64,000 bases of DNA from Owenia fusiformis (taxonomy: Eukaryota > Annelida > Polychaeta > Sabellida > Oweniidae). The notes under the pieces are model-generated. The model had not been told where the DNA came from and did no database searches. It saw nothing but the letters and a program-made list of their open reading frames with translations. This document shows, one piece after another, positions 2,270 to 48,235 of the stretch (positions within the stretch are counted from its first letter, which is position 1; the number at the start of each line of letters is the position of its first letter). A program made the translations under genes and the position numbers. The stretch lies in NCBI GenBank assembly GCA_903813345.2, contig CAIIXF020000011.1, forward strand, positions 26,714,166-26,778,165. The letters are read 5' to 3'.

Positions 2270-4896
2270 CTTGAAACGTAGCGGAGCGATTTTGTTCATA
2301 TTTGGTATGCAGGGTTCGAACTTAACTTTTTAGACTGGTAGTGTATGTGGATACTATAAGCATTGCACACTGTCTAATGACACTTTTGGTAGAAGGCTGC
2401 CATTTTGAAAAATGGCGACCATTTTTACTTTTATAACTATTTATTGAAAAGGAGTGGAGCGATTTTGTTCATATTTGGTATGTGAATACTATAAGCATGG
2501 CACACTGTCTAATGACACTTTGGGTAGTAGGCGACCATTTTGAAAAATGGCTACCATTTTTACTTTTATAACTGTAAATTGAAAAGTAGTGGAGCGATTT
2601 TGTTCATATTTGGTATGTGAATACTATAAGCATGGCACACTGTCTAATGACACTTTGGGTAGAAGGCGACCATTTTGAAAAATGGCGACCATTTTTACAT
2701 TTTTTACTATTACTCAAAAAGTAGTAGAGCGATTTTGTTCATATTTTATATGTGAATACTATAAGCATGGCACACTGACTAATGACACTTTGGGTAGTAG
2801 GCGACCATTTTGAAAAATGGCGACCATTTTTACTTTTATAACTATAAATTGAAAAGGAGTGGAGCGATTTTGTTCATATTTGGTATGTGAATACTATAAG
2901 CATGGCACACTGTCTAATGACACTTTGGGTAGTAGGCGACCATTTTGAAAAATGGCTACCATTTTTACTTTTATAACTGTAAATTGAAAAGTAGTGGAGC
3001 GATTTTGTTCATATTTGGTATGTGAATACTATAAGCATGGCACACTGTCTAATGACACTTTGGGTAGAAGGCGACCATTTTGAAAAATGGCGACCATTTT
3101 TACATTTTTTACTATAACTCAAAAAGTAGTAGAGCGATTTTGTTCATATTTTATATGTGAATACTATAAGCATGGCACACTGACTAATGACACTTTGGGT
3201 AGTAGGCGACCATTTTGAAAAATGGCGACCATTTTTACTTTTATAACTATAAATTGAAAAGGAGTGGAGCGATTTTGTTCATATTTGGTATGTGAATACT
3301 ATAAGCATGGCACACTGTCTAATAACACTTTTGGTGGAGGAGACCATTTTGAAAAATGGCGACCATTTTTACATTTTTTACTATAACTCAAAAAGTAGTA
3401 GAGCGATTTTGTTCATATTTTTATATGTGAATACTATAAGCATGGCACACTGTCTAATGACACTTTGGGTAGTAGGCGACCATTTTGAAAAATGGCGACC
3501 ATTTTTACTTTTATAACTATAAATTGAAAAGTAGTGGAGCGATTTTGTTCATATTTGGTATGTGAATACTATAAGCATGGCACACTGTCTAATGACACTT
3601 TGGGTAGTAGGCGACCATTTTGAAAAATGGCGACCATTTTTACATTTTTTACTATAACTCAAAAAGTAGTAGAGCGATTTTGTTCATATTTTATATGTGA
3701 ATACTATAAGCATGGCACACTGTCTAATGACACTTTGGGTAGTAGGCGACCATTTTTACTTTTATAACTATTAATTGAAAAGGAGTGGAGCGATTTTGTT
3801 CATATTTGGTATGTGAATACTATAAGCATGGCACACTGTCTAATAACACTTTTGGTGGAGGAGACCATTTTGAAAAATGGCGACCATTTTTACATTTTTT
3901 ACTATAACTCAAAAAGTAGTAGAGCGATTTTGTTCATATTTTTATATGTGAATACTATAAGCATGGCACACTGTCTAATGACACTTTGGGTAGTAGGCGA
4001 CCATTTTGAAAAATGGCGACCATTTTTACTTTTATAACTATAAATTGAAAAGTAGTGGAGCGATTTTGTTCATATTTGGTATGTGAATACTATAAGCATG
4101 GCACACTGTCTAATGACACTTTGGGTAGTAGGCGACCATTTTGAAAAATGGCGACCATTTTTACATTTTTTACTATAACTCAAAAAGTAGTAGAGCGATT
4201 TTGTTCATATTTTATATGTGAATACTATAAGCATGGCACACTGTCTAATGACACTTTGGGTAGTAGGCGACCATTTTGAAAAATGGCGACCATTTTTACT
4301 TTTATAACTATAAATTGAAAAGTAGTGGAGCGATTTTGTTCATATTTGGTATGTGAATACTATAAGCATGGCACACTGTCTAATAACACTTTTGGTGGAG
4401 GAGACCATTTTGAAAAATGGCGACCATTTTTACATTTTTTACTATAACTCAAAAAGTAGTAGAGCGATTTTGTTCATATTTTTATATGTGAATACTATAA
4501 GCATGGCACACTGTCTAATGACACTTTGGGTAGTAGGCGACCATTTTGAAAAATGGCTACCATTTTTACTTTTATAACTGTAAATTGAAAAGTAGTGGAG
4601 CGATTTTGTTCATATTTGGTATGTGAGTGAATACTATAAGCATGGCACACTGTCTAATGACACTTTGGGTAGTAGGCGACCATTTTGAAAAATGGCGACC
4701 ATTTTTACATTTTTTACTATAACTCAAAAAGTAGTAGAGCGATTTTGTTCATATTTTTATATGTGAATACTTTAAGCATGGCACACTGTCTAATGACACT
4801 TTGGGTAGTAGACGACCATTTTGAAAAATGGCGACCATTTTTACTTTTTTAACTATAAATTGAAAAGTAGTGGAGCGATTTTGTTCATATTTGGTA
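2270..4896 (+). repeat. Tandem satellite array, ~134-bp monomers with higher-order dimers
   Basis: About 20 monomers each begin near GAGCGATTTTGTTCATATTTGGTA. Each carries CTATAAGCATGGCACACTGT, TAATGACACTTTGGGTAG and a short palindrome CCATTTTGAAAAATGG. Two monomer types alternate: one has ACTATAAATTGAAAAG(T/G)AGTG before the next start, the other ACTATAACTCAAAAAGTAGTA. The second type recurs every ~270 bp, and one larger unit repeats at 521 and 540 bp. Copies are very similar, which implies recent homogenisation. The array lies in what would be a downstream intron of the lipid kinase gene if that gene continues to the left. Confidence 0.93.
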
Positions 4897-27400: not shown

Positions 27401-30400
27401 ATTTTTCATCTGAAACACAACTGCTTTAGTTATTATCTAATGCCTATATACAGTAAAGCCTATATTGAGAAACTGTCATTATATGTCATTCTCTTTATTA
27501 TTTGTTGTATGCATTGCAGGAATTACGTGGCAACATCAGGGTACATTGCAGAGTGCGCCCTCTATTGGATTTTGACCGGGGCTCACAAGACGTCAAAACT
27601 CTGGGAAGGTTTGTACAACTCTACTATAATAATAAATTTTGGCTGACATATTTAGAACTTAAGTTTTAATTTTGTTTGTGTTCCATATCCCAATTATTAT
27701 TTGATTATCAGTTGTTAATATTTACAGGGTATTTCATTTAAATGATTAAGTTAAAATAAATATTATAAGAAGAAACAAACATCAATAAATGTACAGTTTC
27801 TGCATTTTTTGATGGAATCACTGAATTTCTGCATATATTTTCAGAGTTGGCTCACAGTCAGAGGTTGTGGTTCATGTTTTAGATGATGTAAGTTCAACAT
27901 TAAACCATGATCACTATGAAATAAGTTGCATGAAGTATTTTATTTCCATGTTAAATATGTCATCCCCCTGAGGTAAATGATAAATATCAATATCCTCTTT
28001 CTGAATAAACCCAACGTACAATCCCTCCCTAGATAAAACCTTTATACAAGTTGTATATTCAGTGGTCTTCAAATCTTAAGACCCTAGGGACCAAACTAGA
28101 TATGAAAACCTTTTGAATATATATATTTTTGTGGTAAAACTACCTGAACTTCATAATTGTCTTACAGGAGAATGTTTGCATTAAGACAAGCAAGCAGACA
28201 AAGGCATTTGAATTTGAGAGAGTGTACTCCCCTTTAGAGAATCAGGACACAGTGTTTGAAGAGGTTCAGCCCATGTTGACTTCGCTTCTAGATGGGTATG
28301 TGGAGATGATGTGAAAATCATAGAGTGTATTGGGTTTTTATACCATTATCTTTTTGGCTGATATGTCACCACAACAAGTGCTATAGTCTCCAACCTTTTT
28401 TGTGGACTGTGTTTGGCGGATGGTGGTCAGTGTTCGGACTCTGTAACAAATGACAGGTGGTGACATTTTGCATGTTAATGCCTTATAATATTTCTGGTCT
28501 TGACTATTTTCTGAAAATTAAACCAGATCAATCTTTAGATCCAGTGAAATTCATTGAATCAACCCCATAATAAAGTTAATGTTTGATTACATGTACTTAT
28601 ACTTGACCCTTGACCTATATTTCAGGTACAATGTGTGCATCATGACTTACGGTCAAACAGGAAGTGGTAAAACACATACAATGTTAGGTAGCCATAGCAA
28701 CGATGAATACCATCCATCCAAAGAGCCTCATAAACAGGAAGGAATTATACCCCGGGCTGCAAGAGAATTATTTAGGTAATAAATTACCAGAGTAGTTAAT
28801 ATTCAAGCGATACAATTCTTTTGTACAGATTCAAAAGACTATAAAATAAACAACATTATTCACTAATGAAGCTTAATTCACTGTTCAAATGTTTTGATTT
28901 TTTTCTTTAAAAGAGAGGTTCATTTGAAAAATACATCTTTTGATCTAGCCATACCCAATCGAATTAAATATATATGTTAAATAGTGTTATATAAAAACTT
29001 AATGCAAATTCAAATTAAATCCATCCAATCCAAATCCATTAAGTCCATCTTTTCAATCAGAACTGCAGTCAACAAATGTAATGCCTTTATAAGTGGCTGT
29101 CATCTGTTTCATATTATCATAGGAAAATCTCATGGAAAACCATCCAAATTTGAACGCATTTACTATAAATTACATGAATGGGATAAACCACTTCATTGAT
29201 TTACATTGAGATTTTTGCATGTACAGTTAAACCTTACCAAGTGGAACAGCTTTGGTACCTCTAAAAATTGTTCCACTGACAGAGGTATTCCACTTGAAGA
29301 GGTTTTCCACTAAACGACTCCATTGTATCTATTTTCAACATTTTCCAGCTTGATATCAGAGAAGCCCCCAGATACTCATTCAGTTGAGGTTTCTGTTGTT
29401 GAGATCTACAATAATGACATCCGTGACCTTCTTAGTGGGGACCCTAATGCCAAACATGATGTAGTGACAGCCAGTGATGGATCTCTCTATGTCCCAACAG
29501 TCTCTTGCAAGTAGGTCAACTTCTGTCTCAGTTTTCTCTTTAACTTTTTTGTTTTTCAACATTTCATGTACTTTGGTATTATCATACCATTATGTTTTTC
29601 TGGAGACAAAACTTTTCAGACATGACGTGTTCAACTTTACAGTCTAGTTGAAACATTCTATTCTGTCATATGTACAAATGACCAGTTCACTTGAAACATT
29701 ATGTGATGTTCACATTAATAGTCCACTTCAAATAGTCTATGTCATTTGTTCATATTTACAGGCCATTGGAGACGGTCTATGATGTCATGTGTTCATATTT
29801 ACAGGCCATTAGAGACGGTCTATGATGTCAGGTGTTCATATTTACAGGTCATTTGAGACAGTCTATGATGACACGTGTTCATACTTACAGGCCATTGGAC
29901 ACAGTCTGTGATGTCATGTGTTCATATTTACAGGCCATTGGAGACAGTCTATGATGTCATGTGTTCATATTTACTGGCCATTTGAGACGGTCTATGATGT
30001 CACGTGTTCATATTTACAGTTACAGGTCATTTGAGACAGTCTATGATGTCATGTGTTCATATTTATTTACAGACCATTTGAGACAGTCTATGATGTCATG
30101 TGTTCATATTTACAGGTCATTTGAGACAGTATGATGTCATGTGTTCATATTAACAGGCAATTAGAGACAGTCTATGATGTCAGGTGTACATGTTCATATT
30201 TACGGGCCATGTGAGACAGTAGTCCATGATGTCATGTGTTGAACTTTACAGGCCAATGTGTCTTGTGTTCCTATTAAGACTTGAAACAGTGTGTGATGTC
30301 TATTGTGTTCAACTTTACAAGCCAGTTGAGACAGTCTATGATGTCATGTGTTCATATTTACAGGTCAATTGAGACAGTCTATGATGTCACATGTTCATAT

Positions 30401-30889
30401 TTACAGGTCATTTGAGACAGTCTACGGTGTCATGTGTTTATACTTTCTCCAAAATTTTTGAAAAGGTACTCCATGCTAGAATCTTGAAACACCTTATGGA
30501 TAATGACCTCTTATACAAGTTTCAGTCAGGTTTTCTCCCTTGCCACAACACAGAACTTCAACTTTTACCAATTACTGACTATATTTATCATCAAATGGAA
30601 CAAGGAAACTGTATTAACTCGGTATATCTCGACATTTCGGCTGCGTTTGATACCGTCCCGCATTTGCTCTTAATACACAAAATGAAATCCTATGGAATTA
30701 ACGGCAAGACAATTGATCTTTGTGATTCTTACCTGAGGAATAGAAAAGTTTGTGTATCAATCAATGACCAAGATTCTAAATTCTCAGACAACAACTTCAT
30801 AAACTCTGGTGTTCCTCAAGGCTCAGTAATAGGCCCCCTCATGTTCCTCATCTATATAAATGACCTCCCAGACAACTTAGACTCTGAAG

Positions 30890-30920
<31 letters not shown>

Positions 30921-33900
30921 GCTGATGATACATCTCTATATTCATTTTTTCATCCATCAAATGCTCAAACAGATCAGATTCAAAATGATCTTAATAAAAT
31001 TAATCTGTGGTCAAAGAAATGGTTCCTTAAATTCAAACCTTCCAAAAGTGCCCAAGTCATATTCCACTCAAACCGGATCAAAAACTTCCAAAAAACGCCA
31101 CTTTATTTTGACGGAGAAGTCATTCCATGTAAAACTTCACACAAACATCTTGGATTTATCCTTGATGAAAATTTGACTTATGAAGACCATATAAACTATC
31201 TTTCACGGAAAGTTCAAAAACTGCTTAATCCACTCAAGTATCTGTCAAATAGTGTAAGATCCAAACACCTTGAAACAATGTATTGCTCCTATGTAGCATC
31301 AAATTTTGACTACTGCAGTGCCTTGCATGGGTCTGCCTCATTAGCCCTATTAGCAAAACTTGACAAATTGCACTATCAAGCAGGTGTAATATGTGCAGGT
31401 GTTCTTCATGGCTCAGATACCTCCAAAGTTTTTCAATGTCTTAACTGGAAAACCCTTAGTCAAAGGAGAAATGAAAAAAATGTTCGGATAATGTTCAAAA
31501 TAAACAAAAGAAATGTAGCACAATATATATGCGACATATTTGACAAATATAAAAACCCAGCCACCAGACTACTGAGACATTCTATGCCTTACAATATTCC
31601 AACTAATGTTTCTATCAGACTCCTTAAAGCCCCTGTCTTAAATATTATAAAACAATGGAACAACCTTAGCCAACTTATAAGAGAATTACCAACCATCTCT
31701 AGTTTTAAAAATGCTGTTCGGTCAACAATTCTCCCAAACATAAATTTCATTCCAACAACCAAGCTAAACTTAACAAGGTCAAATGAGAAGATTTTAAACA
31801 GACTTCGTGTTGATTTCTTTTTAAAAGAACACTTTTTCTCTCATAATTTTATTGGTGTAACCGACAACAAGTGTCCATGTGGATCCCCTGAAAATACTAA
31901 GCACTTTCTCCTTTTTTGCCCCCGCCATACTGATGATAGGACAAACATGATTACTGCACTTAGACAAAACAACCTTCTCTATGATGAGAACATCTATACC
32001 AACCGAAATGATCAAGTCAAATATCTCCTTTATGAAAATACCCTTAGCCGTGATTCACAAAACTTACTTCTTAGCATTGTGCTCAACTTTGTTAGATCAT
32101 GTTACATTCACCCATTGAGAATCTAAAACTTGCCCAAACCTCCTGGACCAAAATATCCCCAACAACTAAGCAAATAAGCAATTAACAACAAAACTTTTCA
32201 ATAGTTTTATGCATTTTTTTGTTTTATTATTACTTGCTTCTAAACTATATTTATGTTAAAGCGACCTGTAATGCCAAATGGCGATTGGTCTTGCTTACTT
32301 GTACTTTGTAAATTACTATGATTTAAGAATAATAAAAACATTAATAATAATAATAAATGTGTTTATATTTACAGCCCATTTGAGACAGTAGTCCATGATG
32401 TCATGTGTTGAACTTTACAGGCCAATGTGTCTTGTGTTCCTATTAAGAGTCCACTTGAAACAGTGTGTGATGTCTATTGTTTTCAACTTTACAGGCCAGT
32501 TGAGACAGTCTATGACGTCATGTGTTCAGTTCAACATGGACTCCAGATGCGTAGCGAATCACCCACCCTTGTACATGAGCACTCTAGTAGATCGCATCTC
32601 ATCGTCACGTTGACCTTGACAACTCAGGCCAATTACTTAAACCCAGTAGGATCATCAGGGGCAGAATCTCCAGCGCCATCTTCTGCCAGATCACCTATTG
32701 ATCCAACATTCGCAGGTAGGCTTAGAGTTTTTTTGTTTTATTTAAAAGTATTCTTCCAACTCAATAGGATTGGAATAAGCAAAGCTTTATTGAAAATCAC
32801 TTGATGGTCACATTATCAAAAAATGCATATGATTTATTTTCAAAGAAACTGAGATATATTTTTTTGTTTTTAACTTACTGCTTCAATTATATTTACGAAC
32901 ACAGAAAATAGTACATGTATACTGTTTGTCCTTTACATGTATGATTATACTGCATTGCAGCTTTGTCTGGGTACTTAAGTGCATAGATGAGTTTCTTTTA
33001 TATTCGTTTTTTCTCATTTTTCAATTGAAGGTGTGCTGAACTCTCACACTTCTCTCAGCAGACTGGCAAGAAGGGGCAGCGCTCCTGGGAAATTACCAGC
33101 TGGTAAAGACAAATCATGCGATCTATTGTGGCCTTCTAGCTTGCAGCATTGTGTTTGATATTACAAACAAAAGTAAAAGGGACCTGGCCAAAGCAACGAT
33201 GGCATCACAATAGTAGATGTATCTGCTAAATGATGTCAGTGTTATTAATGTCATTGTAGGATGATGGCACATGCTATTATTTGTGCATTGCTGCATGGAT
33301 AGCTTGGCATATTACTTGGATTTTTCTATTGCAGTAATAACTATAGTGTGCAGTCTTCGTAGGTGCATGTTCCAGTTCTTTAAATGTCTATGCTATGTCA
33401 AAGCTGTGTGCATCTATGCTTAATAATAATCGCTATTTCATACAGTTTACGAGAGGAGACTATTGATGCAAACCAAAAACCAGCAACTTAAAAGTCATCT
33501 TTATAATGTTAATCAAAGAGGTGGCTGTTGGAATTAGTATTTCAAATGTCTATTTTAGCATGTATTAAGCATGTTCTTAAATTAAGCCTTGCACTGGCTG
33601 CATGGTCTTTGTCAGGAGCTTAGACTGCATGGGTGAATGTTATGGTGAGAAATATGCAGTGATCATAAGTCTCCTGTACAATGAATGTATATTTAGTCGT
33701 ACAATGAATGTATATTTAGTCAAATACCTTCCAAAGTACATGCATATAAAATTAAATGGTAAAATGACCAGTTCCAAAGTTAAAGCCAGGAATTCATGAG
33801 GAAGTATATGTTTTCTGTCATTTGTGTTTAATATATTTAGCATTGACTTCATCCTCAACTCAATCCTTACCCACAAGGCTAAAACTCCCTGGAGTGGATG

Positions 33901-36260
33901 TGAGACGTCGAAGTACACCTGCTCTGTTTGACAGTAACCCCAGTTTTATTCCAGGTATTCTGGGTGATATACTGTGTGGAATCATTTGTGACATCACTGA
34001 CCTCTATGACATCACATCACATTTTGTTAGTACCCCAATCAAAATACCCTAATTTGATTGCTCAATAAGAGTTTTTTAGTCTACTTCTGTAGAATCAACG
34101 GACTAGCAACAAACAGATTGTAAACTTTCGGTAGATTTTATATATATTGTATACTTAGTGTATTAGTTCATTGTTGACTGAGAAGCCATTTTACCTCACC
34201 AGGTGTCAGCAACTGTCATTTTACACATAGTGTATAGAGTTGTCCCCACTATCTAATTGTCTATCACATACAGTAGTTCAATATACAATACAGTGTTCAT
34301 TTAAAAATATGTTTAATATCTTTATGGGTAAGGTGTGTACCCTTATGTAAATATCATTGTTGTTTAACCAGCTCGTTATTTGCATGATTTCTTTTTTAAT
34401 TTCTCAAAAGACCATGGTTGCACTTAAGCATCCTTGTATTAGTCCTTTTCTAATGTATAGATGGCATTGCCAATTGTTGTCTTGTATTTACCTGCCATCT
34501 TTACAATGTGAAGTATTGTACTAAGAGAGGACCCTGTGCATGACCAATTTTTACTTTTAACATCCTCCGAATGCAGGGTTCTAGACGTCATCCACTAAGT
34601 TCCTTCCTTCTTTTAGAAGAAGGAGGTACAAGGCCTGTGTTCGGAGGATGACTTTTAATGACCATCTTCAATTTGTTCATAATGATCAAGTTTCTTTCAA
34701 GTTTGATATTCACATTATTTTCTATTTTCAATTGGAAAATATTCATTTGATATAATTGTTACGTACATGGCAAAGGTTTCCTGTTCTCAACTTCCCAATA
34801 TTGTATGATAAAATGTATAGTATGATTTAATTTATTGTTTATTTAATAAATCCTTAAATCAAACCAATAATATGAGATATAATTACAATTTATTTAATAT
34901 GTTTTGTAGTTCCAAGTACTCCCACTAAAGACAAGCAGCGTAGACAATTGCCGCCCCAGCCTCCTCCGCCATCTTTCTCTATAAGGTCACGTTCTCCATC
35001 CCCAATAAGATCGATGACCCCCACACTTTCTGGAGCCATAAAAACTAAGCTCCAATTGGTTGATCTGGCAGGAAGTGAATGTGTTGGTAAGAAAATTGCT
35101 TCTGATAGAAACTACTATGATATTTATTTGCTTATTTTAGATACTCACAGAAAAGCGATTTATTGTGGACACACTTAAGCAAAAGGATTAGACCTCTTGT
35201 TCACTTCTTCATTTATTGACATAAGTTTTCAAGTTGCTCCTGAATGTATTTACTTATCCTATCAAAATAACACACTTTTGTTTAGGTACACAAAAGTATG
35301 AGTCGCATGGGCTTCTTAAAACTAAGAGATAATTGTCTTCAGGTACTTGTTTTGAGGTCCCAAAGATGCTCTTAAATAATAGACATGTGAATGTATGAAA
35401 AGATTCTGGAAGCATAAAAAGCAATGTAATGAGACATTCCAGGAAGTGTTTACAATATGAGGTGTTTACATTGAGAGGCGTTTACAATAAGAGGTGTTTA
35501 CATTGAGAGGTGTTTACAATAAGAGGTGTTTACATTGAGAGGTGTTTACATTCATTTTGTATGATTATAGGTATGTCCGGCGCTACAGGGGACAGACTAC
35601 GTGAGACTTCAAACATCAATAAAAGTCTCTCAGCCCTAGCTGATGTTTTAGGAGCCCTGGCTGAGCACAGATCACATGTCCCATATAGAAACAGCAGAGT
35701 GACACATCTCTTACAGGACTCCATAGGTAAAATTGAGTCTCATATAATTTGCTCACAGGGTCATGGATACCCTCATGTATAACAGCTCCTTAAAGAGTCA
35801 TGGATACCCTCATGTATAACAGCTCCTTAAAAGGTCATGGATACCCTCATATGTAACAGCTCTTTTAAAAGTCATATAACTCATAGCCTTTGTAACAACT
35901 CGTTAGTTTTTTGTACATTTTGAAAATTTGTGTTCATGTGGGCACATCTTTGTCTTTGAATTTAATTGTCATTGTTTTTAATTTTTTTCATTGTATTCAG
36001 TAATGTGTATTTCATTAACATTGCTATTGTTCATACCAGGAGGTGATGCAAAGTTGTTAGTGGTGGCCTGCGTGTCTCCAGCAAAACGCTACCTCACCGA
36101 GTCATTACAGTGTCTTGGATTCAGTCAGCGGGCACGCCAAGTCCAGCGTGGACCAATCAAACGCAAGCTTCCACCAGCTGTAGAGAAGATCGGCCCAGGA
36201 GATTCAACCAATCGCAGCGCATCACCCAGACCAAGATCTGCAGGGCCCTTGAGACAATGA
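21420..36260 (+). CDS. Kinesin-14 (C-terminal motor), KIF25-like
   Basis: Exons: 21420-21488 (ATG, tentative), 25262-25333 and 25391-25441 (tentative), then in strict phase 26097-26285, 26557-26695, 27093-27196, 27520-27608, 27845-27887, 28168-28295, 28626-28775, 29349-29510, 32495-32715, 33031-33102, 33841-33954, 34910-35086, 35571-35726 and 36040-36260. The last 14 exons give 654 residues plus stop. N-terminal coiled coil ([20 protein letters not shown]) leads into the kinesin-14 neck [15 protein letters not shown]. Then come the P-loop [11 protein letters not shown], switch I SSRSH, switch [10 protein letters not shown] and [16 protein letters not shown] short basic tail follows the motor. 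C-terminal motors of this class move toward microtubule minus ends or organise spindles and centrosomes. About 115 extra residues separate switch I from switch II. The KIF25 assignment is less certain than the class. Confidence 0.88.
21560..21735 (+). repeat. Poly-C minisatellite, left
   Basis: There are five units of the form poly-C followed by AGAAATTTGCATCCATA. C-runs reach about 22 bases. The long open frames in several phases on both strands come from the low-complexity unit and are not genes. Long C-runs are prone to slippage and assembly error. Confidence 0.85.
23747..23917 (+). promoter_or_regulatory. Mobile CRE/TATA promoter-like module, copy A
   Basis: This 171-bp segment is matched without gaps by 44828-44998, with about five substitutions. 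It contains a consensus cAMP-response element TGACGTCA at 23765-23772 and a TATATA box at 23786-23791. About 115 bp further on is ATGCAAAGG directly followed by GTAA, which looks like a short first coding exon with a splice donor. Similarity stops at that donor. The spacing CRE, TATA, start codon, donor fits a Pol II promoter with its first exon that has been duplicated or mobilised. Activity is inference. Confidence 0.5.
23905..24451 (+). CDS. Candidate two-exon small secreted protein
   Basis: Exon 1 is 23905-23913 (ATGCAAAGG, donor GTAACG) and exon 2 is 24191-24451 (after TGTTTCAG). They join in phase to 88 codons plus 0 internal stops. The start [19 protein letters not shown] looks like a signal peptide. 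The remainder is acidic then neutral ([15 protein letters not shown]) with four cysteines, two near the end (SCSILC). I recognise no family. Support: a CRE/TATA module in the right place upstream, an in-phase junction and a hydrophobic N-terminus. Against: short length, location inside a transposon-like element, and AT-rich composition that can produce such frames by chance. Confidence 0.3.
24545..24835. repeat. Dispersed repeat, copy 2 (related to 409-880)
   Basis: It carries the same ordered blocks as the copy near the left end of the window: AAATGCGTGACAT, CGAACGAAATGCG, T-run CCGGCG, and AAATGCGTGACAAATACGCA. An inverted pair GCGTGACATTTTCTGTCACGC lies in the middle. Non-coding. Confidence 0.5.
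24895..25105 (+). repeat. Poly-C minisatellite, right
   Basis: Seven poly-C tracts alternate with AGAATTTTT and GGTCAACA/GGTCTCCTA spacers. It is related to, but distinct from, the left minisatellite of the same TIR element. Predicted proline-rich frames here are artefacts of base composition. Confidence 0.8.
25262..25441 (+). CDS. Kinesin coiled-coil exons 2-3, with apparent frame break
   Basis: After TTTCTAG the frame in phase with exon 1 reads [12 protein letters not shown], then hits a stop. From about 25289 a second frame reads [14 protein letters not shown]. Both halves look like coiled coil, so one base appears lost or gained at 25289-25296. The second frame continues across a 57-nt intron (25334-25390, branch-like TGCTAAT and TTTTCTGTAG) into [16 protein letters not shown], ending at a GT near 25442. 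Phase then fits the next exon if its acceptor is 26104 rather than 26097. The model is plausible but unproven. Confidence 0.4.
28385..28490 (+). repeat. Short dispersed repeat, copy 3
   Basis: This is the best-preserved match to 13790-13905: CTTTTTTGTGGACTGTGTT, GTAACAAATG.CAGGTGGTGACATTTT and TGTTAATGCCTTAT. A GTCACCACAACA motif just upstream mirrors TGTTGTGGTGAC near copy 2 and may be a terminal repeat. It lies in a kinesin intron. Confidence 0.6.
29640..30431 (+). repeat. Tandem array of duplicated splice acceptor plus exon start (left block)
   Basis: About 15 imperfect copies of a ~43-bp unit, TTCATATTTACAG followed by GCCATTTGAGACAGTCTATG and ATGTCATGTG, precede the LINE. The unit is the polypyrimidine/AG and the first ~33 nt of the real kinesin exon at 32495, which starts GCCAGTTGAGACAGTCTATG. 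A longer block including an atypical copy (GCCAATGTGTCTTGTG) occurs both here (about 30203-30345) and immediately before the true exon. The boundary region has therefore been duplicated as a unit. Most copies keep a TTTACAG acceptor. Confidence 0.88.
30432..32367 (+). mobile_element. 5'-truncated non-LTR retrotransposon (LINE) with 11-bp target duplication
   Basis: The insert 30443-32356 is flanked by ATGTGTTTATA at 30432-30442 and 32357-32367. It begins inside the reverse transcriptase domain ([13 protein letters not shown]), so the 5' part is missing. It continues through [32 protein letters not shown], a YADD catalytic motif and a C-terminal [17 protein letters not shown] cysteine motif, and ends in TAA repeats. 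A (CATA)n microsatellite at 30892-30917, directly before YADD, splits the frame: 30443 to ~30890 is in one frame, ~30918-32126 in another. The copy cannot encode an uninterrupted enzyme. It resembles the CR1/Jockey-like group; the clade is uncertain. Confidence 0.9.
32357..32494 (+). repeat. Splice-acceptor/exon-start tandem array (right block)
   Basis: Two further units lie between the LINE and the true exon: CCCATTTGAGACAGTAGTCC and the atypical GCCAATGTGTCTTGTG unit. Both are preceded by TTTACAG and followed by the real acceptor at 32491-32494. Removing the LINE and one copy of its target duplication makes this block continuous with the left array. Confidence 0.85.
34561..34655. mobile_element. 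Small hairpin element in kinesin intron
   Basis: CATCCTCCGAA at the left and TTCGGAGGATG at the right are perfect inverted repeats about 90 bp apart. Partial pairing continues inward (GCAGG/CCTGTG, TTCTTTTAGAAGAAGGA). It is a short foldback element or MITE remnant; non-coding. Confidence 0.45.
35448..35550 (+). repeat. 17-bp tandem repeat, six copies, in kinesin intron
   Basis: Units of GAGGTGTTTACAATAA / GAGGTGTTTACATTGA alternate for about 100 bp, ending roughly 25 bp before the exon acceptor at 35570. Units resemble the GGTGTTCACTA motifs of the small mariner-type MITE at 18.3 kb. Confidence 0.7.
35754..35870 (+). repeat. ~39-bp tandem repeat, three copies, in last kinesin intron
   Basis: GTCATGGATACCCTCATGTATAACAGCTCCTTAAA is repeated three times with small changes, shortly after the donor at 35727. 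Non-coding minisatellite. Confidence 0.75.
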
Positions 36261-47359: not shown

Positions 47360-48235
47360 ACGTTACTTTCAGGTAAATCCCAGTGACTTCCAAGGCCGCA
47401 ATGACCAATCAGGCTGACTCCAAAGGTCGCATTAACCAATCGACAGTTAATAATGGTGACTTCAAAGGTCGCATTTACCAATAGATAGTTAATAATGGTG
47501 ACTTCAAATTCAAAGGTCGCATTTACCTATCGAGAGTTAATCATGGTGACTTCAAAGGTCGCATTTACCAATAGACAGTTAATCATGGTGACTTCAGAAG
47601 TCACATTTTCCAATCGACAATTAATCAAGGTGAGTTCAAAGGTCGCATTTACCAATCAGGGTGACTTTTAAGGTCGCATTAACCAATCGACAGTTAATAA
47701 TAGTGACTTCAAAGGTCGCATTTACCTATCGAGAGTTAATCATGGTGACTTCAAAGGTAGCGTTTGCCAATCGACAGTTAATCGTGGTGACTTCAAAGGC
47801 CGCATTTACCAATCGACAATTAATCAAGGTGACTTCAAAGGTAGCGTTTGCCAATCGACAGTTAATCAAGGCGACTCCAAAGGTCGCATTTACCAATAGA
47901 CAGTTAATCAAGGTGACTCCAAAGGTCGTATTTACCAATAGACAGTTAATCAAGGCGACTCCAAAGGTCGTATTTACCAATCGACACTTAATGAGGATGA
48001 ATCCAAAGGTCTTATTATTTACGATCGGAAATTGACTTCAAAGGTTTCAATTATCAATCGACAGTTAATCATGGTGACTTTAAAAGTCGCATTTACCGAT
48101 CGACAGTTAATAATTTAACGATCGAGAATTCATCAGGGTGACTTCAAATGTCACAATTACCGATCAACCGTTAATCAGGGTGGCTTCAAAGTCTCAATAT
48201 ATATTACCGATCGAGAATTAATCAGGGTGTAATAA
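47360..48235 (+). repeat. 42-bp minisatellite, about 20 copies
   Basis: The unit is GGTGACTTCAAAGGTCGCAT then TTACCAATCGACAGTTAATCA. Copies are most regular between 47500 and 48000 and decay toward both ends. Because 42 is a multiple of three, open frames persist on both strands (plus 47661-48035 as VTSKVAFTNRQLIK-type repeats, minus 47726-47980). I treat these as by-products: no start context, signal peptide or splice sites support them. Spacers are not unique, so it is not CRISPR-like. Confidence 0.9.

Follow-up and report, generated by a model that had tools for sequence, protein, structure and literature searches.

Kinesin gene and intron features

The stretch analysed here (the window, 64,000 nucleotides from the annelid Owenia fusiformis) carries a kinesin gene in which one intron consists mostly of tandem copies of its own splice acceptor and the start of the following exon, together with one long interspersed nuclear element (LINE). 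The junction of the two flanking exons (29510/32495) is colinear and gapless with solved kinesin motors (best match KIFC3, E 1.7e-10), and five motor exon pieces, when joined, match the Pfam family Kinesin with E 1.7e-50. With KIFC3 as its best match the gene may be labelled a kinesin-14, and we take it to be KIF25-like. The intron, its repeats and the adjoining exons are arranged as follows:

29349..29510 (+), upstream kinesin motor exon, ending in ...SLYVPTVSC plus AA before the donor GTAGGT (reading frame and kinesin alignment)
29511..32494 (+), intron, mostly acceptor repeats plus one LINE (Tandem Repeats Finder, TRF; unit profile)
29627..29754 (+), degenerate and probably oldest copies, forming the 5' margin of the array (matching it at 72%, E 3.4e-10; single copies in the unit profile E 0.017, 6.4 and 0.12)
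29755..30442 (+), main array of ~43-bp units, in which 16 copies are distinguished by eye and 15 rows by the profile (TRF, nhmmer and alignment)
30191..30354 (+), array copy of a shared block, with a partial and an atypical unit (93% to 32360-32528)
30443..32356 (+), broken LINE inside the array (Pfam RVT_1, E 2.4e-19), with the target-site duplication ATGTGTTTATA at 30432-30442 and 32357-32367
32368..32487 (+), three copies 3' of the LINE: typical, partial and atypical (unit profile and alignment)
32488..32528 (+), true boundary, the last copy of the unit, with acceptor TTTACAG at 32488-32494 and 34 nt of exon
32495..32715 (+), true kinesin exon, carrying switch I (SSRSH) and followed by the donor GTAGGC

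A tandem array of acceptors and exon starts

TRF, a unit profile and alignment show that an acceptor and its exon start have been amplified in tandem within this kinesin intron, as had been proposed from the bare sequence. TRF reported a 43-bp unit in 16.4 copies at 29739-30442, with 76% matches between units. The unit profile, searched with nhmmer, returned 15 rows across 29755-30442, three more past the LINE, and the true boundary itself (32488-32528); clear units scored E 1.2e-11 or lower, partial units were weaker, and outside the intron no profile match fell below E 0.7. When the profile row at 30245-30300 was split by eye into a partial and an atypical copy, the array came to 16 copies upstream and three downstream of the LINE, about nineteen in all, in place of the roughly 15 and 2 counted in the original prediction. 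Searched against the 498-Mb genome (498,259,871 bases, 525 contigs), the array gave three matches, all within this intron, in a search that may miss copies.

Each unit comprises a TTTACAG-like acceptor and ~33 nt of exon start, and its length is not a multiple of three, as first described. The repeat spans the splice site (32 exonic nt were aligned in addition to the acceptor), and the copies lie in tandem and adjoin the authentic boundary. AG is kept at the acceptor position in 12 of the 15 typical copies, and the exact motif TTTACAG at the aligned position in nine. A larger block including an atypical unit had also been predicted to be common to the array and the boundary, and this was confirmed by the 93% identity between 30191-30354 and 32360-32528 (164-169 bp). 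Because this block extends 34 nt into the true exon, the true boundary must itself have been duplicated. The LINE is flanked by an 11-bp target-site duplication and was therefore inserted into an array that already existed.

Minisatellite-like tandem duplications of an intron-exon boundary have been described in amphioxus under the name of mirages (PMC3087553, PMC3902484), and in its structure the window array is one. We consider it very probable that the array is also a mirage by origin, that is, a minisatellite begun by tandem duplication across the intron-exon boundary and then grown.

Two short arrays (35446-35552 and 35760-35875) flank another exon of the same kinesin gene; by eye they look purely intronic, and no exon bases were seen in them.

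A KIF4-like gene with 17 decoys

A Pfam kinesin search of the genome uncovered 18 equal matches spaced 159 bp apart on C2, in a gene whose best match is KIF4 (E 9e-42). In this KIF4-like gene (C2:23266293-23269174) an exon is preceded by 17 decoys, each consisting of the exon's own acceptor and its first ~127 nt, with a period of 159 and the true exon last. The acceptor AG is intact in 18 of 18 copies, and two of the 17 decoys are identical to the true acceptor over 24 nt, the others being close to it. Translation of the first, ninth and last copies showed both decoys to be in frame up to a stop, and the true copy to read on. The unit is about 97% identical throughout. With its 17 intact decoys, this gene is the cleanest case that we found.

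Exon-edge repeats in sampled kinesin and myosin genes

Exon pieces were sampled by score or by clustering of matches, not by their repeats, with the C2 array and the window kept outside the counts. The kinesin sample comprised 87 pieces (136 kb) from 126 genome matches outside the C2 array, and the myosin sample comprised 56 of 92 matches (62 kb), with a cluster of duplicated myosin exons excluded. The self-BLAST filter was by itself insensitive to L017/L042, where the family match spans the intron, and to L046; both were found otherwise. In 10 of the 143 pieces, about one in fourteen, at least 17 exonic nt recur in the adjacent intron; five more arrays, listed last, come in addition to these 10:

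Kinesin pieces: L036, L037, L039 (three times), L042, L046a and L048
Myosin pieces: L059 and L069
Outside the 10, arrays next to exons absent from the family-search matches and identified solely through reading frame and splice signals: L020, L029, L046b, L052 and L065b

The repeats of L037, L042 and L059 are degenerate or in few copies. At L058 a donor is repeated with 4 exonic nt only, placing it outside the 10, and a weak match at L056 (65% identity) was left uncounted. A family test of the L029 exon piece returned no convincing family. Including the five arrays at unlisted exons, the window and the KIF4-like gene, 17 cases are now at hand, 10 on the acceptor side and seven on the donor side, with an exonic repeat of 17-139 nt. 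In all 17 the copies seen flank the working boundary on its intron side, in a systematic comparison that covered this side only, and stretches read directly likewise show them there; this position is what selection on the protein would require. The window array, initially treated as a curiosity of one gene, thus shares its architecture with other sampled exon edges and carries a published name.

L039 (C6:40703300-40711300) is a single kinesin gene region with four tandem arrays, of 39-, 57-, 76- and 154-bp units, at or next to four exon edges. The acceptors of L037 (AG/GTGAGC) and L046b (AG/GTATGC) could act as dual-specific splice sites. At C9:37986009-37994334, twelve successive matches cover the same part of the myosin head (about 18-84 of the profile); they probably represent exons that a muscle-type myosin gene uses in mutually exclusive fashion, and form a contrast to the mirages. 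Mutually exclusive duplicated exons are a familiar feature of muscle myosin heavy chain genes. They resemble mirages as tandem copies of exon sequence within one gene, but are whole, carry both splice sites and are used alternatively, whereas mirage copies are without one of the splice sites.

Position of arrays relative to exon edges

Within the sampled loci, 21 TRF arrays with a period of at least 26 and at least 2.5 copies were compared with a null in which one unit per array was placed randomly outside exon interiors, and an array was scored as straddling when it extended at least 5 nt over an exon edge listed by Pfam. Eight of the 21 arrays were straddling, whereas the null gave about 2.1 on average (P 0.00025 in one run and 0.0004 in another). 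The remaining 13 comprised five cases at unlisted exons, three with donor sequence and little or no recognised exon (L039d, L033 and one at L065) and five that look purely intronic.

Several observations weigh against this excess. L039 contributes three of the eight, and without it the count falls to 5 of 17 versus 1.7 expected (P 0.018); with L058 also removed and an overlap of at least 10 nt, it falls to 4 of 16 versus 1.5 (P 0.05). L058, one of the eight, shares its 4 exonic nt and no more, and the arrays of seemingly pure intron sequence number at least five among the 21 (L019, L032, L053, L054 and L059 1-309). The excess at exon edges, in sampled loci of one genome, is suggestive and not settled.

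Two further arrays were noted elsewhere in the window. At 2343-4896 lies a 135/270-bp tandem array with about 9.5 copies of 270 bp. At 47407-48229 lies a 42-bp array of about 17 copies plus 2.6, with a donor-like GTAAATG in many of its minus-strand units; the surrounding 1,150 bases, read by eye, contain no evident exon.

Splicing consequences and alternative explanations

The authentic structure of the window gene is intact, with the kinesin frame continuous through the last copy. When 137 AGs in the stretch 29531-32494, among them the true one, were each joined to the upstream exon, 135 led to a premature stop ahead of the exon end. The frame stayed open to the exon end for two only, the true site at 32495 and one at 32450, which lies 45 nt upstream of the true site and would add 15 residues in frame. 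The context of 32450 is poor, since it falls within an atypical unit and reads GAG with an AAG two bases before. Among 22 aligned acceptor rows, 20 gave stops that precede the next junction by 102 to 3021 nt, the other two being the true site and one row set one base off. Stops at such distances from the next junction are expected to elicit nonsense-mediated decay. The true acceptor did not differ greatly from the others in the strength of its tract: it has 12 pyrimidines in positions -20 to -5, compared with 9-12 at the other sites, with some site coordinates off by one or two.

That the last acceptor is the one used, we infer from the exon body, which follows only there, and from frames that are closed elsewhere bar one poor site. 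Two points count against this reading: the support for use of the last acceptor is indirect, and, with the AG at 32450 in frame and open, an isoform with 15 extra residues is conceivable.

An isoform of this kind belongs to an explanation in which the array is a poison-exon or alternative-isoform device, whereby decoys would be spliced in and either lower the amount of kinesin through nonsense-mediated decay or add residues before switch I. The premature stops behind 135 of the 137 AGs and the in-frame acceptor at 32450 would suit such a device, as would the first several 57-bp donor units of L039, which can be read in frame. On the other side, by eye the units hold no convincing donor (no donor scan was run), and unit lengths, which vary from gene to gene, are divisible by three in some only. 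The suggestion in the original prediction that the array is a source of alternative or poison exons describes something possible that nothing seen here favours, and we regard it as unlikely.

A similarly low probability is given to recursive or dual-specific splicing, in which AG/GT copies would act as both acceptor and donor and the array would be removed stepwise as in polyubiquitin. Tandem repeats with dual-specific sites are on record (PMC10809524), AG/GT occurs at five acceptor sites of the window array, and the true acceptors of L037 and L046b are donor-like. However, the GTCATT of the window copies is a poor donor when judged against the donor consensus, and the true site is without AG/GT in eight of the 10 acceptor-side cases.

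It had also been proposed that the array is a field of decoy acceptors under selection. Decoys that titrate or delay splicing would be under constraint, whether to remain similar to acceptors or to shed their AG, and the retention of AG in 12 of 15 typical window copies and in 18 of 18 copies of the KIF4-like gene is in keeping with the first of these. Across the 15 typical copies, however, conservation in the two acceptor columns is 0.87 and 0.93 versus a mean of 0.92 over all columns, so that decoys maintained or eliminated through selection find no support, the AGs decaying at the column-average rate; in the KIF4-like gene, with the whole unit about 97% identical, intact AGs are uninformative. 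The AGs look neither protected nor removed, a pattern as under neutral decay, in a set of 15 related copies with little power. This idea was not borne out, and we consider it very unlikely.

An array produced by long-read mis-assembly is the least credible explanation, for while arrays are where assemblers fail and one assembly was examined, the units differ from one another (76% matches by TRF), the LINE lies inside the array with its target-site duplication, and 16 further cases have equal architecture, three of them in one gene, although the exact copy number may be wrong.

Origin of the array as a mirage thus remains our preferred explanation, and a course of events can be outlined for it. 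A stretch spanning the intron-exon boundary would first have been duplicated in tandem, and the array would then have grown, presumably through slippage or unequal exchange. Since the copies precede the functional boundary and so belong to the intron, the spliceosome would remove them with it as long as the last acceptor is used, a choice that may follow from exon definition, this acceptor being the nearest to the exon's own donor. Most mis-spliced transcripts would meet an early stop and probably be cleared by nonsense-mediated decay. The uniform decay of the copies and their interruption by a LINE make near neutrality probable. In the Owenia fusiformis genome, such arrays arise or persist repeatedly at exon edges, on the acceptor and the donor side.

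Relation to known systems

The anatomy of amphioxus mirages, as set out in the accessible parts of the two reports, is that of the window array: they occur on either side of an exon, with varied unit lengths and with splice signals in many copies, and RT-PCR (reverse transcription PCR) suggests that the genes are spliced normally (PMC3087553, PMC3902484). The genes named there are Adh3, the globins BflGb6 and BflGb9, PGBD5 and troponin C, of which the lancelet PGBD5 mirage is reported and troponin C cited in PMC3902484. Those accounts, in the same accessible parts, concern cephalochordates and a handful of genes, whereas here the host is an annelid, with 17 intact-acceptor decoys in one gene and repeats in 10 of 143 pieces. 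Sequence searches of the genome also point away from amphioxus: an engineered fluorescent protein of amphioxus origin produced a single stray match (E 0.87), while with the same tool a 60-residue kinesin query produced 33. Pfam GFP had no match in a search whose controls were likewise silent, and COX1, sought for the mitochondrial code as a marker of the taxon, had none. Among the open-access literature matches listed, abstracts and excerpts held no report of mirages outside cephalochordates, which is weak evidence of absence. The kind of array is already known; what sets the present case apart is its frequency in a genome outside the group in which mirages were described.

Other systems share some of these properties. 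In the polyubiquitin gene UBC, splice sites are likewise repeated with the tandem unit, forming an array of dual-specific sites; unlike the window array, which consists of exon fragments in an intron, the UBC units are, in the portions available, whole coding monomers that undergo stochastic splicing (PMC10809524). Internal tandem repeats in human duplicated genes alter gene structure through minisatellite expansion; they are located in either exons or introns and alter the proteins, and copies of splice boundaries are not described in the accessible text (PMC2812944). Intronic repeats are recorded in earthworm metallothionein, where the portion available does not state whether they span splice sites (PMC12783039).

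A human example is the interferon gene IFI6/G1P3 (6-16), in which a minisatellite reportedly contains multiple splice donors, with copies used as donors. This gene resembles mirages in having a minisatellite that supplies repeated splice donors, and differs in being one donor array in one human gene.

Biological meaning

We lean, by a little, towards the broader proposal that mirages extend beyond amphioxus and constitute a pervasive mode of intron growth in this annelid, with genic minisatellites born or retained preferentially at splice junctions. A preference for exon edges could perhaps arise if the coding copy at the edge of an array serves as a constrained master, or if the junction is prone to tandem duplication. 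The sample raises a testable question, namely why genic minisatellites lie on splice junctions above random expectation.

If this proposal is true, as many as 17 near-identical splice sites compete naturally within a single array, of which the exon-side one is needed for the protein. Such rows of near-identical acceptors or donors are a natural experiment on how the spliceosome chooses among equal sites. If mirages are widespread outside cephalochordates, they would also be a source of gene annotation error. Ultimately, they would then represent an overlooked route of intron lengthening, and a possible origin of new introns and exons.

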